NCBI RefSeq assembly: GCF_004365175.1
Contig: NZ_SOCE01000001.1
Span: 5,675,098-5,739,097, forward strand
Origin: Kribbella voronezhensis
Lineage (GTDB): Bacteria; Actinomycetota; Actinomycetes; Propionibacteriales; Kribbellaceae
Length of the DNA: 64,000 nucleotides
Reading direction: 5' to 3'
The translations under genes and the position numbers were made by a program. Positions 3,706 to 47,039 of this stretch are shown here, piece by piece. Every line of letters starts with the position of its first letter. The first letter of the stretch is position 1. The notes beneath the pieces are model-generated. The model made no database searches, was not told the DNA's origin, and was given only the letters and a program-made list of their open reading frames with translations.

Positions 3706-3758
3706 GGAGGCGTGCGGCGGATGTCTCACCGCAGGCCACCAGCCGCCGCGGGGGATGG

Positions 3759-6260
3759 TCAGTCGGCGCGAGCGGCTGCTTCGGCCGGGCGGGTGCGCAG
3801 GGTGGCGACCGCCGGTAGCAGGATCGAGGAGAAGGTGAGCGTTGCGGCGACGCCGATGATGACCAGATAGATCCACAGCGGTCCACTCGGCACTGCCGAG
3901 GTGGAAACCGTTGCGCTGAAGGGGATCAGCGTTGCCAGCGCCACCAGCGTTCCGAGGATGATGCCGGCCAGGGCCACCAGGAAGCTCTCGGTGGTGAGCA
4001 TCCGTAGTACCTGGCCACGGGTGGAGCCGGTGAGACGTTGCAGACCGAGTTCGCGCCGACGACGCACGGTCGCCGAGGCGAGAGTGTTCACGATCGAGAC
4101 GGCCGTGTAGGCGATCAGCATGCCGACCAGCAGGTAGTTCACCCAGGCCTGCGTCTTGAGATCCGCGCTGTTCCCGGCGATCAAGGCGTCCCGATCGGAG
4201 ACCTGTACGCCGGGATGCCTGGCCGCGAGCGCTTGCAGTGGACCGTTGATCTCGGCACCGGTCTTGGCCCGGACCAAGAGCTGCTTGGCCAGCCGGTCCG
4301 TGGTGTGCGTGGCCAGCAGCTCGGCCGGCAGCACGATGCTCTCGTAGCCGCGGTCGGCCGCGAAGGTCGCCACGACCCGCAGGTCCACGTGCGCCCCGTC
4401 GCCAAGGGTCATCTTGATCGTCGATCCGACGCCTCGCCCGATCTTCGAGGCGACGTAGTCGGGCAACGCGACCGTCGTACCGGCCAGCCCTTCCAGCGAT
4501 CCCGAGGTGACCTTCACCGGCGCGGCACCATCATTGCCCTGGGCACTGATTCCTCGCAGCGGTGCGCCGTCCTCGTCGAAGGGTGCGTTCCGCGGCTCGT
4601 CGATGACTCCGGTGCTGGTCACGTACGCCGAAGCGCTCGCGACCCCCGGCTGTTTGCGAACCTCACCGAGCAGCGCGGGATCGAGTCCGCCCGCGGTGGA
4701 GACCAGGACCGCGTCCGCCCGCAGTTCCTTGGTGAACGCCTTCTCGGACGCGTGCACCTGCGTGGTCTGCATGTAGATGTTCGAGGTGGAGATCCCGACC
4801 GCGAGCATCACCGGCATCACCGCGGCCGACATCGCCACCGATCGCGCCGTGACATTGAGGATCGCGAGCCGCCCGTTCACCCGGCTGACGGCGTACAGGG
4901 GCCAGCGGAGGACCGCCAGCACCGCCTTGGTCCAGAACGGGCCGAGCAACGCGATCCCGATCGCCCAGCAGAGGACGGCCGGCCCGGCGGTCGCACCGGC
5001 GAGTGGGCCGGTCATCACTGCCACCGTGACGATCACCAGCGCCAGACCGCCACCGGTGAACAGCAGCCCGAACACGAGCCGCACCCAGCCGAACCACTTG
5101 CGCTGCAAGCCGGCTTCGAGCAACGCCTCGACCGGACGGATCTTCGCGGACTTGCGGGCGGCGATCAGAGCGGCACCGATGGCAGCCAGTACCGCGGCGC
5201 CCGCACCGGCCGCGAACGGGATCAGGCCCTGGCGGTACTCGACGGCCGCCGAGGCGACCCCGTTCGCCGCCAGCCGGTCGAACAGGAACCGGCCGAGCCA
5301 CAACCCCGGCACCGTCCCGACCACCACGGCCGGCAGCGACACCAGCATCGCCTCACCGAGAATCATCCGCCGGACCTGGCCCGGCGTCGTACCGATGCCG
5401 CGCAACAGAGCGAATTCGCGCTCGCGGTGCTGTGCCGACAGCGCCAGCGTGGAGGCGACCACGAACATCATCGTCATCGCCGCGATCCCGCCGAACGACC
5501 CGGCGATCGAGATCAGCGCGGTCTGGAAGGTCGCCGCGTCGGGATGCTCGGCCGATCCGCGGTCGACGCCGCTCATCACGGTGACGTCGCCGATGGCCTT
5601 CAGGTGCTTCTTCACCTCTTTCAGATCGGTGCCTGGAGCAACCAGTACGCCGATCGCCGCATAGGTCCCCGGTCGCCCGGACAGCCGCGACGCCTCGTCG
5701 TTGGAGAAGAACGTGTGCCCAGCGGGCCCTTGCGCAATACCCCGGACTACGAACGGCGTCGGCCGGCCCTGAGCCAGCAAGGTGACCTTGCTGCCCACCT
5801 TGGCGTGCACGGCAGCGGCGGTCGAAGCGTCCAGAACGACCTCGTTCGCGCGGGCTGGCGCAGTACCGGATTGCAGCTTGTACGGCGCCAAGCGGGCCGA
5901 CGACCAGTCGTGGCCCTGTCCGCCGGCACCGTTCGCCAGCAGCGGAGCCGGGAAGGTCAGCGAGCCGATCGCGTCCTTGACTCCGGCCACCGACCGGATC
6001 TTGGGCAGCAACGAGGCGTCGAGGTCGACCTGCTCGGTGAGTGGGGTGGCGTCCTCGGCTCCGGGCCGGAGATGAGTTTGCTTGCCGGTGACAACCAGGT
6101 CGGCAGCGGCCAGCCGCTGCGGCGGAACGTTCGACCGGATGCCGGTCTCCAGCAGACCACCGCAGGCCATCACGATCGCGGTACCGAAGACGACGGCCAC
6201 GAAGGTCGCGATGAAACCGTTCTTGCGGAATCTCAGGGTGCGTACGGCCAGTCGCATCAT
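3759..6260 (-). CDS. ABC transporter permease, FtsX/MacB type
   Basis: An 833-residue permease. A first membrane helix lies around residues 13-35, followed by an extracytoplasmic domain, then an FtsX block (about 255-375) containing the typical R-E-R-E-F-A-L-L-R-G-I-G. Two further helices (about 400-450) lead into a second extracytoplasmic domain and a second FtsX block (about 700-825, with R-R-R-E-L-G-L-Q-R-L-T-G). This duplicated layout is usual for actinobacterial MacB-like exporters acting on antimicrobial peptides, lipids or envelope-stress signals. Its start overlaps the ATPase gene by 4 bases, so the two form one transporter. The cargo cannot be inferred. Confidence 0.9.
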   Translation of the reverse strand: MMRLAVRTLRFRKNGFIATFVAVVFGTAIVMACGGLLETGIRSNVPPQRLAAADLVVTGKQTHLRPGAEDATPLTEQVDLDASLLPKIRSVAGVKDAIGSLTFPAPLLANGAGGQGHDWSSARLAPYKLQSGTAPARANEVVLDASTAAAVHAKVGSKVTLLAQGRPTPFVVRGIAQGPAGHTFFSNDEASRLSGRPGTYAAIGVLVAPGTDLKEVKKHLKAIGDVTVMSGVDRGSAEHPDAATFQTALISIAGSFGGIAAMTMMFVVASTLALSAQHREREFALLRGIGTTPGQVRRMILGEAMLVSLPAVVVGTVPGLWLGRFLFDRLAANGVASAAVEYRQGLIPFAAGAGAAVLAAIGAALIAARKSAKIRPVEALLEAGLQRKWFGWVRLVFGLLFTGGGLALVIVTVAVMTGPLAGATAGPAVLCWAIGIALLGPFWTKAVLAVLRWPLYAVSRVNGRLAILNVTARSVAMSAAVMPVMLAVGISTSNIYMQTTQVHASEKAFTKELRADAVLVSTAGGLDPALLGEVRKQPGVASASAYVTSTGVIDEPRNAPFDEDGAPLRGISAQGNDGAAPVKVTSGSLEGLAGTTVALPDYVASKIGRGVGSTIKMTLGDGAHVDLRVVATFAADRGYESIVLPAELLATHTTDRLAKQLLVRAKTGAEINGPLQALAARHPGVQVSDRDALIAGNSADLKTQAWVNYLLVGMLIAYTAVSIVNTLASATVRRRRELGLQRLTGSTRGQVLRMLTTESFLVALAGIILGTLVALATLIPFSATVSTSAVPSGPLWIYLVIIGVAATLTFSSILLPAVATLRTRPAEAAARAD

Positions 6261-43174: not shown

Positions 43175-44464
43175 TTACGGCGTCAAACGGTGGAGGTCTC
43201 GGGGGAACAGGGTTACTTGGCGGATGTTTTCGGCGGCGGTTAGGCGGGATACGAAGCGTTCCAGGCCGATGGCGAAGCCGCCGTGTGGGGGCATGCCGTG
43301 TTTGAAGGCCTGGAGGTAGGACTCGTACGCCGGTGCGTCGGGGGACTCGCCGCGTGCTGCCAGGGCGGCCGCGTAGTCGCTGTAGCGGTGGAGGCGTTGG
43401 CCGCCGGTGACCAGTTCGACGCCGCGGAACAGCAGGTCGAACGAGTTGGACCAGCGTGGGTCCGACGGCTGCGGATGGGTGTAGAACGGCCGCTTCACCA
43501 TCGGGTACCCCTCGACCGCGACGAAGGCGCTGCCGTGTTCCTTCAACGCCCACTCGCCGATCGCCCGCTCGTCGGCCGGTGACAGGTCCGGTTCGTCCGG
43601 GTCCGCCCCGGCGAGCTTCAGCGCTTCGCTGAAGTGCAGTACCGGTACTTCGGCCGGGATCTCGGGCAGCTCGACCTCGAGTCGTTCGAGCGCAGCCGCC
43701 GCGCGGGTCCCCACCGATGCGAGCATCCCGGCGATGACGTTCCGCAGTACGGCCAGGACCTCTCGGTGGTCGGAGATGAAGCCGAACTCGGCGTCGAGCG
43801 AGACGTACTCGGCCAGGTGCCGGACCGTGTCGTGCGGCTCGGCGCGGAAGACCGGGCCGACCTCGTAGACGCGCTCGAACACGCCGACCATCGTCTGCTT
43901 GTAGAACTGCGGCGACTGGGCCAGGTACGCCGGGCCGCCGAAGTAGTCGAGCGCGAAGACGTTCGCGCCGGACTCGGTCGCCGTACCGACGATCTTCGGC
44001 GTCTGGATCTCGGTGAACTCCAGACTGTCCAGCGTGCTCCTGAAGCCGTGCAACGCCGCTGCCGCGATCTCCCACCCGGCCCGGATCGCCGGGTGCCGCA
44101 GGGCGACGGGCGCGTTGTCCAGTACGACGGGGAGTCCCGCGCCGACCGTCGGTCGCCAGAGCTCGATGGGCGGCGTGTACGCCGGTTCGCTCAGCGGCGT
44201 GATGGTGGGGTCGACGATCTCCGCCCCGCCAGGCGCTTGTGGGTTGGCGGCCACCGTTCCGGTCACCTGTACGACGGTCTCCTCGCCCAATTCGTCCAGC
44301 TGGGCCTGGGTTTCCGGCGCTTTGACGACGATCTGGCTCAGGCCGGACCGGTCGCGCAGGATCAGGAACCCGACTGTCGCCAGCCGTCGTCTTCGGTGCA
44401 CCCAGCCGGCCACCGTGACGGTCTGGCCTACTGCTGAGGGGATCTCGTGGTTGAGAATGCGCAT
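43175..44464 (-). CDS. aspS: Aspartate--tRNA(Asp/Asn) ligase, archaeal type
   Basis: A 429-residue class II synthetase without the bacterial GAD insertion, hence of the archaeal/eukaryotic AspRS type. An OB-fold anticodon domain (G-W-V-H-R-R-R, F-L-I-L-R-D-R-S-G) precedes the catalytic core: motif 2 V-F-R-A-E-P-H-D-T-V-R-H-L-A-E-Y and motif 3 G-G-F-A-I-G-L-E-R-F-V. Such enzymes are usually non-discriminating and charge tRNA-Asn with Asp for GatCAB to convert. ATG at 44464 follows GGAGGTG by 8 bases. That ribosome-binding site is part of a T-box leader. The upstream open frame to 44536 lies inside the leader and is rejected. Confidence 0.93.
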   Translation of the reverse strand: MRILNHEIPSAVGQTVTVAGWVHRRRRLATVGFLILRDRSGLSQIVVKAPETQAQLDELGEETVVQVTGTVAANPQAPGGAEIVDPTITPLSEPAYTPPIELWRPTVGAGLPVVLDNAPVALRHPAIRAGWEIAAAALHGFRSTLDSLEFTEIQTPKIVGTATESGANVFALDYFGGPAYLAQSPQFYKQTMVGVFERVYEVGPVFRAEPHDTVRHLAEYVSLDAEFGFISDHREVLAVLRNVIAGMLASVGTRAAAALERLEVELPEIPAEVPVLHFSEALKLAGADPDEPDLSPADERAIGEWALKEHGSAFVAVEGYPMVKRPFYTHPQPSDPRWSNSFDLLFRGVELVTGGQRLHRYSDYAAALAARGESPDAPAYESYLQAFKHGMPPHGGFAIGLERFVSRLTAAENIRQVTLFPRDLHRLTP

Positions 44465-44700
44465 CGCTGTTTCACCTCCGTTGGTCAATTCGAACCCCGG
44501 AGGTGTGGGCGAAGGGGAATCTCGCGGTGCCACCACACCTTCACCGCCCAGCGTGGATGCCGGACGGCCTCTTGCACTTCATTCGCTCAGGAGTGTCTTC
44601 ACGACCGGCCTGTACGTCGCCTTCCCAGCTACCGGCGACTCTCTCTTGCACAGGTGAACGGCGCTACTCGGTTCCGTCACCGCGAACCCCTCAAGAGTAG
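44465..44700 (-). promoter_or_regulatory. tRNA-Asp T-box riboswitch, translational type, for aspS
   Basis: On the minus strand the leader has every T-box element in order. AGUA-containing lower Stem I (GAGUAGCG, about 44672-44665) faces GAAGACA, giving specifier codon GAC (Asp) at 44597-44595. The Stem I head GUCGCC/GGCGAC (44639-44634 with 44621-44616) follows an AGAGAG bulge and carries GGUAGCUGGGAA. The T-box UGGCACCGCG lies at 44532-44523. AGGUGUGG (44540-44533) can pair with CCACACCU (44508-44501) as antisequestrator. Alternatively CACCUCCG (44505-44498) pairs with the ribosome-binding site CGGAGGUG (44480-44473). Uncharged tRNA-Asp should therefore free the ribosome-binding site. A plausible promoter is TTGCTC...TACTCT just upstream. 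The 5' end is approximate. Confidence 0.88.
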
Positions 44701-44762
44701 GACGGCCAGGCCGAGAAGAGCAAAAGGATTAGGCCGCGCGGGTCCAGCTAGCAGTGGACTAC

Positions 44763-47039
44763 CTAGCGGTGGCTGGAGGAAGGCGGGATGGGGATGGTGT
44801 CCGTGTCGTGGCGGCCGACGGTGGACGCCGTGACTGTCAGTTGGTTGGCGGTGCCGGAGCCGGGCCACGCTGCCCATTCGCTGTTGAAGGGTCTGGTGTA
44901 GTGGTCGGTCCAGCAGGTCGCGCGGCGGATGTCGGTCGAGCGTGAGCAGGTCCAGCCGGGATCCACGTTGGACAGGAAGCTGAGCTTACGGCCCCAGGCG
45001 ATCTCCAGGGTGACCCGGCCGGTCGCGCCCTGGATCACCAGGAACCGGTTGTAGACAAAGGGATTCGGGTCCTGCCGCGGATCCGGCGTGACGATCCGGA
45101 GCAGTGACTCGTCCAGCTGGGTCGGTGCCAGCGTCTCCGAATCGGTGTCCGAGACCAGGCCTGCCGTCGCGCTCACGCTGTACGTCCGGGCGGCTGCCGA
45201 GCTGTCCTGGGGCACCGGGAAGGCGGCGTACAGGGGAGCAGGGCGGGTCGGAGTGAGCGCGGTACAGGTCTTGGTGGTCTGGTTGCACTTCCAGCCGGCC
45301 GGGTTCGCCGCGATCGGCCAGGACAGCGACGCGCCGTACGTGATCTTCAGTGTCACCTGGGCGCGATCGGTGCCAGGGGCAACGGTGAGGACGCGGTAGT
45401 GCACATCGGCGTCGGCCTTGCCGGGGCTGAGCTTGAGCAGGTTCTCGTCCGTGCGCGGCGGCGCGACGAGCGTCTCGGAGTCGTCGTCGTAGAGCCGGCC
45501 GGCCTTGGCCGAGATGGTGAAGGTGCGGTCGACCGCCGATCCGCCGGTCGGGTCCGCGAAGGTGATCGGCAGCATCTCCGGCGAGGCCGGGTTCGCCGCC
45601 GTGCAGGCTCCGCTCTTGCCGTCGGCGGCCTTCGTGCAGGTCCAGCCGGCCGGCGTACCGGTGATCGGCCAGTGCAGTGCGGCGCCGTACTTGACCTTGA
45701 TGGTCACCGGCTTGGCGTTCGTCGCAGGCACCTTGATGGTGATCAGCCAGGCGCTACCTGAAGCCACCGTCGTCTCGGCGCGCGCAGCGGGACCGTAGAT
45801 ACTCGCGACGCCACCGCCCGACTTCGGTGCGCTGATCGTCAGCAGCCCCTCGTCGAAGATCGGCGTCGTCGGCTCCGGCGGCGTCGGCTTGGGCGTGACC
45901 GGAGGTGGCGTCGTACTGGTCTGGGTCGGCTCCGGCTGGGTCGGCTGGACCGACGGCGGCTTGACCGTGGGCGGCTTCACCGTCGGCGGCTTCACGGTAG
46001 GGGGATTGACCGGTGGTTGCTGGGTCGCCTTGGACGCCGGCGGTTTGCTGATCGCGGCCGGTGGAGTCTCCTTGCCGGTGAGCGCGATCGCCGCGAGCAC
46101 AGCGACCACTGCCACCACGACGACCGCGCCGCCGGCGACCGCCGTACGGGTGCTGTTCTCGGTGACCTTGCGCCAGCCGGTGACGACGAAGCCGACCAGG
46201 CCGACGTTGGCGCCCGTACCCACAGCGGCGAGGTAGCCGATGCCGGCGGTGCCCAGCAGGGCCGGAGCGAGCAGTGCGGGCAGCGCGCTGTTGACCTCGA
46301 CGAGCTCGAGGTAGACGGCGGTGCACTTGGCGCAGTCGTCCAGGTGCTCGCGGACGTTGTGGTTCTCGCGCTTGGTCAGGCCGCCGCGCACGTAGGCACC
46401 GAGGCGTTCGGTGGTCCAGCGGCAACGATCTCCGGCGACGTCGGCGAGGTGCTGTTGCAGGTACGCCTGGCGCAGGCCTTCGCGGGCCCGGTAGGCGAGC
46501 GCGGACACGCCGTTGGCGGTCAGGCCGAGCAGGGGAGCGATGGCAGCGGGCTTCTCGCCCTCCACCTCGGTGTGCCAGAGCACGGCCTGCCACCGCTCGG
46601 GCAGGCTCGCGAACGCCTTCGCGGCCGCGCCACTCTCGAACCCGGTGACAGTCGGATCCTCGAAGCCTTCCGGGTCCCGCTCGTACGACGCGATGTCGTC
46701 GGTGCTCTGGACCTTCCGGCCGGCCCTGATCCGGTCCACGTGCACCCGGCGGACCGTGGTGAGCAGATACGCCCGGAACGACAGGTCGGGCCCACCACCG
46801 CCACGCAGCGCGTCGAGCACTTTGGCGAACGCGTCACTGGCCAGGTCGTCCGCGTCTCCCGCGGGGACCAGTTGGCGGGCCATCCGCACGGCGGCGTGGT
46901 GATGCCTGCCGAAGAGCTCGCCGTACGCCTCGAGATCGCCGGCCCGGACGCGGGAGATCAGCTCCGCATCGCTCGGTGCATCCGGCGCTTCCATCTCGGT
47001 TCCCCCTGGGTTCGTCACGACACCGTCACTGTCTGTCAT
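44763..47039 (-). CDS. ECF-like sigma factor fused to zinc finger, membrane helix and extracellular repeats
   Basis: A 758-residue chimera. Residues about 25-105 are sigma region 2 (D-D-L-A-S-D-A-F-A-K-V, Y-L-L-T-T-V-R-R) and about 145-195 region 4. A zinc finger of anti-sigma type follows (H232-x3-C236-x2-C239), then a membrane helix (299-320) and a Pro/Thr stalk with P-P-T-V-K repeats (about 325-393). The outer domain (about 395-758) has three related repeats, each with G-W-(T/K)-C and ending S-A-(K/T)-A-G...D-(D/T)-D-S-E-T-L or similar. Sigma, anti-sigma and sensor thus lie in one chain, as in described ECF groups with C-terminal extensions (ECF52/53-like). The ligand is unknown. It is upstream of aspS on the same strand. 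Confidence 0.85.
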   Translation of the reverse strand: MTDSDGVVTNPGGTEMEAPDAPSDAELISRVRAGDLEAYGELFGRHHHAAVRMARQLVPAGDADDLASDAFAKVLDALRGGGGPDLSFRAYLLTTVRRVHVDRIRAGRKVQSTDDIASYERDPEGFEDPTVTGFESGAAAKAFASLPERWQAVLWHTEVEGEKPAAIAPLLGLTANGVSALAYRAREGLRQAYLQQHLADVAGDRCRWTTERLGAYVRGGLTKRENHNVREHLDDCAKCTAVYLELVEVNSALPALLAPALLGTAGIGYLAAVGTGANVGLVGFVVTGWRKVTENSTRTAVAGGAVVVVAVVAVLAAIALTGKETPPAAISKPPASKATQQPPVNPPTVKPPTVKPPTVKPPSVQPTQPEPTQTSTTPPPVTPKPTPPEPTTPIFDEGLLTISAPKSGGGVASIYGPAARAETTVASGSAWLITIKVPATNAKPVTIKVKYGAALHWPITGTPAGWTCTKAADGKSGACTAANPASPEMLPITFADPTGGSAVDRTFTISAKAGRLYDDDSETLVAPPRTDENLLKLSPGKADADVHYRVLTVAPGTDRAQVTLKITYGASLSWPIAANPAGWKCNQTTKTCTALTPTRPAPLYAAFPVPQDSSAAARTYSVSATAGLVSDTDSETLAPTQLDESLLRIVTPDPRQDPNPFVYNRFLVIQGATGRVTLEIAWGRKLSFLSNVDPGWTCSRSTDIRRATCWTDHYTRPFNSEWAAWPGSGTANQLTVTASTVGRHDTDTIPIPPSSSHR

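Follow-up and report, generated by a model that had tools for sequence, protein, structure and literature searches.

An aspartyl-tRNA synthetase (AspRS) gene of Kribbella voronezhensis lies behind an RNA leader with the features of a T-box riboswitch, and the same genome carries a further AspRS gene elsewhere. Which tRNA such a leader would sense, at what step it would act and why a second synthetase should be placed under its control are the questions raised by this locus. The leader occupies 44473-44686 on the minus strand of the window (the whole 64,000-nt stretch of DNA that was analysed), with the specifier GAC and the acceptor-pairing sequence UGGC. From the sequence and its comparison with related leaders, we consider it very probable that this is a translational T-box that responds to tRNA-Asp and controls the translation of a spare enzyme, AspRS2.

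Identification of the leader

In a permissive search, RF00230 matched 44502-44689 on the minus strand over the whole model, from position 1 to 219 (60.5 bits, E 7.2e-13). The original prediction had proposed this search, and it returned a significant match whose score is under Rfam's curated gathering threshold of 93 bits. For this reason the Rfam scan of the window at that threshold gave no hit. Among 394 genomes sampled from the class, 150 had an RF00230 match at E 1e-5 and none reached 93 bits, so that the gathering threshold has little meaning in this group. The best match was 53-75 bits in all 38 genomes of the family (one genus, own genome included). GAC and UGGC occurred together in 30 of the 30 loci behind these best matches, eight of which had no locus, and in all 23 aligned leaders of the Kribbella clade. 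Kribbella monticola is the nearest named relative, with an AspRS identity of 98%.

The elements named in the original prediction (AGUA, GAA, GAC, AGAGAG, GGUAGCUGG and the T-box UGGCACCGCG) are all found on the minus strand at the mapped coordinates (Table 1). The T-box lies within the predicted extent of 44465-44700, but the modelled leader ends near 44686, short of 44700. The specifier loop AGUA/GAA sits in Stem I with a codon that fits a tRNA anticodon, the UGGN sequence is complementary to a tRNA NCCA end (UGGC against G73-CCA), and the antisequestrator has a 7-nt T-box bulge and is backed by covariation. Stem II and the IIA/B element are lacking in Kribbella, where the distance from Stem I to the T-box is too short for them. 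The original prediction, which called the T-box canonical, missed this absence. Absence of Stem II is not strictly disqualifying, because glycyl T-boxes also lack it (PMC7583486).

Table 1. Features of the aspS2 leader and gene, in window coordinates
Feature	Position	Strand	Basis
Stem I, full length (base helix UUCGC/GCGAA, K-turn region, specifier loop, distal loop)	44582-44686	minus	RF00230 alignment; compensatory changes in Kribbella and across genera
AGUA, 5' half of loop E-like specifier loop	44665-44668	minus	Sequence; invariant in 23 Kribbella-clade leaders, at least 90% in 31 long-Stem-I leaders
GAA, 3' half of loop E-like specifier loop	44598-44600	minus	29/31 long-Stem-I leaders; other two AAA and AAC
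Specifier GAC (Asp)	44595-44597	minus	31/31 long-Stem-I and 23/23 Kribbella-clade leaders; fits tRNA-Asp anticodon GUC
AGAGAG (within 44639-44646) and GGUAGCUGG (44625-44633), distal Stem I	44625-44646	minus	Sequence; conserved in both alignments
13-nt linker from Stem I to Stem III, no Stem II or IIA/B	44569-44581	minus	K-turn GAG to T-box distance
Stem III	44543-44568	minus	RNAalifold; 5/8 pairs changed on both sides
Antisequestrator: helix A1 44533-44540/44501-44508, helix A2 44521-44525/44509-44513	44501-44540	minus	Compensatory (both-side) changes in 9/13 pairs across 52 leaders
T-box UGGCACCGCG; UGGC 44529-44532 facing GCCA of tRNA-Asp	44523-44532	minus	UGGC in 50/52 leaders, UGGU in 2
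Sequestrator: CACCUCCG 44498-44505 pairs with CGGAGGUG 44473-44480, which holds the Shine-Dalgarno	44473-44505	minus	MFE fold in 23/23 Kribbella-clade leaders
aspS2, archaeal-type AspRS, 429 aa	43175-44464	minus	NF003483, 532.7 bits; start ATG 44462-44464

The tRNA-Asp gene of the genome has the anticodon GUC and ends in G73-CCA. The Asp specificity in the original prediction is borne out by GAC and also by the match of UGGC to this discriminator end. tRNA-Asn has the anticodon GUU, G73 and U1-A72. G73 is common to both tRNAs, and since GAC can pair with tRNA-Asn by G-U wobble, tRNA-Asn is a possible second effector. The gene upstream (44763-47039, minus) looks by eye like a fusion between a sigma factor and an anti-sigma-like membrane protein.

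Conservation and covariation

The wide alignment consisted of 51 loci and the window; Kribbella was cut to 3 loci, and near-copies and clostridial rows were left out. Thirty of the 51 loci fit a long-Stem-I pattern and form, with the window, a long-Stem-I alignment of 31 rows, for which GAC was not required. When the model structure was applied to the Kribbella-clade leaders (n=23), 98.1% of cells were paired, compared with 34-44% in slid controls. Eleven pairs had changed on both sides, in 42 cells against 11.4 after shuffling, and 0 of 500 shuffles were as high. In the antisequestrator, 90.0% of cells were paired over the 52 leaders of the wide alignment (44 of them distinct), with both-side changes in 56 cells against 14.9 shuffled (again 0/500 shuffles as high). 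In three parts of Stem I, 9 of 12 pairs had changed on both sides in the 31 long-Stem-I leaders (37 cells, 8.8 shuffled). Compensatory changes thus exceed both the shuffled and the slid controls and lend support to Stem I, Stem III and the antisequestrator.

Within Kribbella, the antisequestrator and 7 of 8 sequestrator pairs are invariant, so it is other genera that provide the covariation in the switch. The alignment of related leaders that had been suggested thus provided the covariation sought in Stem I but, within Kribbella, an almost unchanging sequestrator. The original prediction had also staked itself on a model match and on whether related leaders keep GAC, the T-box and the sequestrator pairing, and all three are conserved in the Kribbella relatives. 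It is very improbable that the leader is vestigial, having come with the gene and lost its regulation. Stem I and Stem III show compensatory changes within Kribbella, the specifier and T-box are invariant and the sequestrator is nearly so, which points to current selection on the leader.

GAC lies in a hairpin loop in 19 of 20 short-Stem-I leaders, against 5.8 expected by shuffling, although the longest hairpin differs in several rows from the one chosen by eye. Streptomyces sp. SID13031 (L011) groups inside Kribbella by both AspRS2 and leader and is probably mislabelled.

Predicted switch

Two exclusive pairings, one of them hiding the aspS ribosome-binding site, had been proposed from the first reading of the locus, and the mapped helices agree with this. 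The CACCUCCG/CGGAGGUG helix overlaps the antisequestrator helix A1, whose 3' strand has 44501-44505 in common with the anti-Shine-Dalgarno strand. The sequestrator and antisequestrator states are therefore mutually exclusive. In the calculated minimum free energy fold of the 3' part without tRNA, the sequestrator is kept in every one of the 23 Kribbella-clade leaders (mean -30.5 kcal/mol). The best fold with the antisequestrator enforced has a mean of -23.7 kcal/mol, which is 6.4-6.9 kcal/mol above the sequestrator fold. No terminator-like site was found in 44380-44880. The leader therefore has what is expected of a translational (class II) T-box, namely a helix that hides the Shine-Dalgarno and cannot coexist with the antisequestrator, together with the lack of a terminator-like site, and translational action, as originally proposed, is predicted.

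A leader that acts on transcript elongation, for example via Rho, instead of on ribosome access is quite unlikely in our estimation. Three of six Chloroflexota leaders of the same gene do have a hairpin and a U run after the antiterminator (L045, L047 and L051, by eye). In the Kribbella leader, however, an 8-bp helix covers the Shine-Dalgarno and overlaps the antisequestrator, and a terminator-like site is absent. From this we infer translational rather than Rho-dependent control. Beyond Kribbella, pairing of at least 6 bp to the Shine-Dalgarno was found in 13 of 23 actinobacterial leaders with a long Stem I (shuffling predicts 7.3) and in 15 of 19 mostly short actinobacterial leaders (7.5 expected), compared with 2 of 6 Chloroflexota leaders (2.8 expected). 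A sequestrator is common in actinobacteria, at about twice the shuffled expectation, and is not universal.

In the mechanism that we propose, the leader would hide the aspS2 Shine-Dalgarno in its default state. When uncharged tRNA-Asp accumulates, its anticodon would pair with GAC in Stem I and its elbow would stack on distal Stem I. AGAGAG and GGUAGCUGG are, by analogy with other T-boxes, a putative elbow-binding module (PMC7583486). The free GCCA end of the tRNA would pair with UGGC and stabilise the antisequestrator; the ribosome-binding site would then be freed, and AspRS2 would be made beside the housekeeping enzyme.

AspRS2 and the housekeeping AspRS1

The aspS2 product is well over the cut-off of 353 bits for the archaeal-type AspRS equivalog PRK05159/NF003483 (Table 1). 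With TIGR00458 (aspS_nondisc) it scored 360.5 bits, just below the cut-off of 368.4. Its best solved relative is 1n9w, a chain named as a non-discriminating and archaeal-type AspRS. His23 and Pro78 of AspRS2 align with the same residues of 1n9w, and 1b8a has Trp and Lys at these places. We take these sites of anticodon binding to be positions that discriminate between tRNA-Asp and tRNA-Asn. The enzyme is thus archaeal-type with non-discriminating features, as had been expected, and AspRS2 is probably non-discriminating.

AspRS1, encoded elsewhere in the genome directly after hisS, is of the bacterial type (598 aa; TIGR00459, 700.2 bits, cut-off 373.85), and no T-box match was found upstream of it. 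The original prediction assigned the T-box to control of "aspS". An AspRS gene is indeed downstream, but the separate bacterial-type AspRS1 had been missed, and aspS2 is a second copy. The T-box therefore precedes a second synthetase, and this alters its likely function. When AspRS2 was used as a query on its own genome, the matches were AspRS1, a protein of the LysRS family and a frame of 1250 aa, taken here for LysX. No AsnRS was among these matches, and GatB is present in the genome.

It is conceivable, though in our view unlikely, that AspRS2 mainly makes Asp-tRNA-Asn for GatCAB, with tRNA-Asp as a proxy or with tRNA-Asn bound by wobble at the first specifier base. The set of enzymes just described would agree with such a role, and so would His23 and Pro78, which are as in Thermus AspRS2. 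tRNA-Asn has G73 and also U1-A72, which is reported as a requirement of GatCAB (PMC4206432). Judged by pattern, the specifier is AAC in fifteen clostridial relatives (L079 among the AAC rows). Against this, every long-Stem-I leader, 31 of 31, has GAC, and AspRS1 itself has a His in its discrimination motif (by eye). We assume this His to be the mark of a non-discriminating bacterial AspRS, so AspRS1 may already serve tRNA-Asn. The preferred reading remains a T-box that responds to tRNA-Asp.

Distribution of the T-box

An AspRS2-like gene was present in 37 of the 394 sampled class genomes, spread over 20 of 138 genera, and 36 were over the cut-off. AspRS1 was over its own cut-off in 23 of these 37 genomes and not in the other 14. 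A T-box was found at AspRS2 in 22 of the 23 genomes with AspRS1 and in 0 of the 14 without it by Rfam and motif scan. RF00230 misses ultrashort T-boxes (a Rhodococcus plasmid leader that is clear by motif was not found at E 1), so absence by Rfam only is weak and the two scans were combined. The sole T-box-free genome among the 23, G289, has an AspRS2-like match that at 217 bits falls short of the cut-off, and no T-box lies near it. This match (L175; G289:C1:711870-713048) is a divergent AspRS-like protein with possibly another function. Loose T-box look-alikes in genomes without AspRS1 (L170 and L178, one each) have no UGG and were not counted.

The 14 genomes without AspRS1 belong to one family (f38), so that few independent events, not 14, lie behind the association. 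The Fisher p value of 2.6e-10 ignores relatedness and was not counted as evidence. G205 belongs to f38 yet has AspRS1, and there the T-box is present. In G219 (L163), the tree places AspRS2 among those of the f38 type (100/100 support), and both AspRS1 and a long-Stem-I GAC T-box are present. The sample therefore offers a natural contrast, in which the archaeal-type AspRS has a tRNA-Asp T-box beside a bacterial-type AspRS and has none where it is alone. This suggests a testable explanation for the second AspRS genes of actinomycetes, whose role earlier reports had left unsettled, and we infer that AspRS2 serves as a backup. In G044 (L213; G044:C895:55-242, 276-539 and 3729-4739), aspS2 lies behind a GAC T-box and is interrupted near codon 90 by about 3.2 kb; the class-level match lacked the 5' part, and the T-box and N-terminal codons were found upstream. 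Since AspRS1 is whole in this genome, AspRS2 looks dispensable there, in an assembly that is fragmented (970 contigs, 6% contamination).

In a set of named loci, the relaxed motif found a T-box upstream in all 47 loci of actinobacteria and Dormiibacterota and in all 6 of Chloroflexota. Over the whole set it was found in 73 of 79 loci, and in 70 of 79 with a stricter motif.

Mobility and parallel second synthetases

Relatives of AspRS2 are found on 15 records of a plasmid collection, two of which (11.85 and 2.63 Mb) look chromosome-sized. GAC T-boxes precede 4 of the 6 plasmid aspS copies examined. These are the copies of a Paraclostridium plasmid (119.5 bits), of Streptomyces NBC_01724 (80.6 bits) and of pSCAT (43.2 bits), with specifiers read by eye, and that of Rhodococcus JS3073, an ultrashort T-box seen by motif only that adjoins an apparent transposase end. 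No T-box was found by Rfam at the Macrococcus and Rhizobium plasmid copies. The GAC of the Paraclostridium plasmid aspS (L234) differs from the AAC of clostridial relatives (L058-L081), a case of specifier switching within one enzyme family.

Such mobility raises a special case of the preferred reading, in which the leader and gene would form a mobile, self-sensing module of inducible resistance. An inhibitor of AspRS1, for example a microcin C-like nucleotide, would leave tRNA-Asp uncharged, the T-box would open, and AspRS2, distant from AspRS1 and unaffected by the inhibitor, would take its place. We hold this only tentatively and think it rather less probable than not that resistance is the function. 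The patchy occurrence of AspRS2 (36/394 genomes over the cut-off), its place on plasmids and the way in which the T-box tracks second-copy status all fit such a module. Microcin C-like compounds act on AspRS, and Nocardia vaccinii and M. abscessus are reported to carry clusters for them (PMC9239234). Second copies of SerRS, IleRS and TrpRS are listed as antibiotic-insensitive resistance enzymes in a review whose table gives no auxiliary function for AspRS (PMC9437257). Among the T-boxes of the class, G262 has one for Ser (UCC) before the second SerRS of a two-SerRS genome (L203; G262:C45:63072-63318, minus), with a leader that is AspRS2-like by eye, and this parallel is also in keeping with a resistance module.

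On the Macrococcus plasmid (L233), the genes before aspS encode a methyltransferase, an MFS transporter and a 455-aa protein of unknown kind, and a gene for an S51 peptidase is located about 1.3 kb downstream. The S51 peptidase family is known for microcin C immunity. However, the six Macrococcus plasmid proteins scanned had no match to the ThiF/MccB family, and the Rfam result at the Macrococcus and Rhizobium copies also speaks against a module of this kind. The neighbours, readable for 4 of 10 aspS2 loci, differ by eye from locus to locus, which is a further point against it; in these four loci no operon partner or co-directed gene was seen next downstream. If the resistance function were true, the poisoned AspRS1 would itself yield the opening signal, uncharged tRNA-Asp, in a design that recurs with SerRS. 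Second synthetases tagged by a T-box would then mark unknown natural products that target synthetases and could guide searches for antibiotics.

Relation to known systems

T-boxes, Asp T-boxes, actinobacterial translational T-boxes, a T-box on a second archaeal-type synthetase and the second AspRS of Actinomycetales are each known separately. The translational ileS T-boxes of actinobacteria resemble the Kribbella leader in phylum, antisequestrator design and sequestered Shine-Dalgarno (PMC1262725; PMC7583486), but they have an Ile specifier before ileS, in contrast to GAC before a second AspRS and the absence of Stem II. In Bacillus cereus, the lysK T-box (class I LysRS1) likewise controls a second synthetase of archaeal kind beside the usual type; it is a Lys T-box that also responds to uncharged tRNA-Asn, whereas that of Kribbella is an Asp T-box (PMC2916919). 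In both glycine (glyQS-type) and Kribbella leaders, a short linker joins Stem I to Stem III. The glyQS-type T-boxes specify Gly and act on transcription, whereas the Kribbella leader specifies Asp and sequesters the Shine-Dalgarno.

A Clostridium acetobutylicum T-box reportedly has Asn (and Glu) codons and stands in an operon with GatCAB. This T-box on tRNA-dependent amidation genes is likewise tied to an extra AspRS and to Asn synthesis (cited in PMC4206432); the Kribbella-type leader differs from it in GAC and in the lack of a co-directed gene next downstream at the four loci with readable neighbours. Genomes that have an additional AspRS and GatCAB but no AsnRS are reported mostly from Actinomycetales, and the sections of that paper on these genes do not mention a T-box for actinobacteria (PMC4206432). 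SerRS2, TrpRS1 and IleRS2, which are insensitive to antibiotics, are similarly distant second copies beside a housekeeping enzyme (PMC9437257), with the difference that in Kribbella the trigger would come from the T-box. The T-box database TBDB covers actinobacterial reference genomes (PMC7778990), and these leaders may be among its entries. In the open-licence literature, we found no report of a T-box on an actinobacterial aspS, nor of a GAC T-box combined with AspRS2, its association with second-copy status or the plan without Stem II.

Leader architecture

We judged the presence of Stem II by the distance from the K-turn GAG to the T-box; a looser regular expression for IIA/B was dropped as too permissive. 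In the three Kribbella-clade leaders tested this distance is 52-53 nt. Among 28 long-Stem-I leaders it is 48-53 nt in seven (the three of the Kribbella clade, three Nocardioidaceae MAGs and G044) and 80-177 nt in 21. An IIA/B-like motif was found in 18 of the 21 long-distance leaders and in 0 of the 7 short-distance leaders. The short distance indicates that the Kribbella plan is glyQS-like, with a full Stem I, no Stem II and an Asp specifier, in what is seemingly a translational T-box.

For the AspRS2 tree, 22 near-copies were dropped, and Stem I labels were assigned by pattern and by eye. On this tree 7 changes are required to explain the short-Stem-I state, and well-supported branches force no fewer than 6 of them. 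The long and short forms have therefore interchanged repeatedly on one orthologous gene family, which makes it useful for studying riboswitch shrinkage. The original prediction considered a full-length Stem I unusual in actinomycetes, and this did not hold. Of 48 other strong T-box matches inspected in the class, most lie before an IleRS-like start (by eye), two before AspRS2 and one before SerRS, and a few were unreadable. Many of the ileS-type leaders inspected have a long Stem I, so its full length is not the surprise; at least two are short (L222, L232). A second, weaker T-box match is present in 30 of the 38 family genomes. That of the K. voronezhensis genome (L002; G000:C1:502516-502676, plus) has a very short Stem I and AUC, and is located before ileS.
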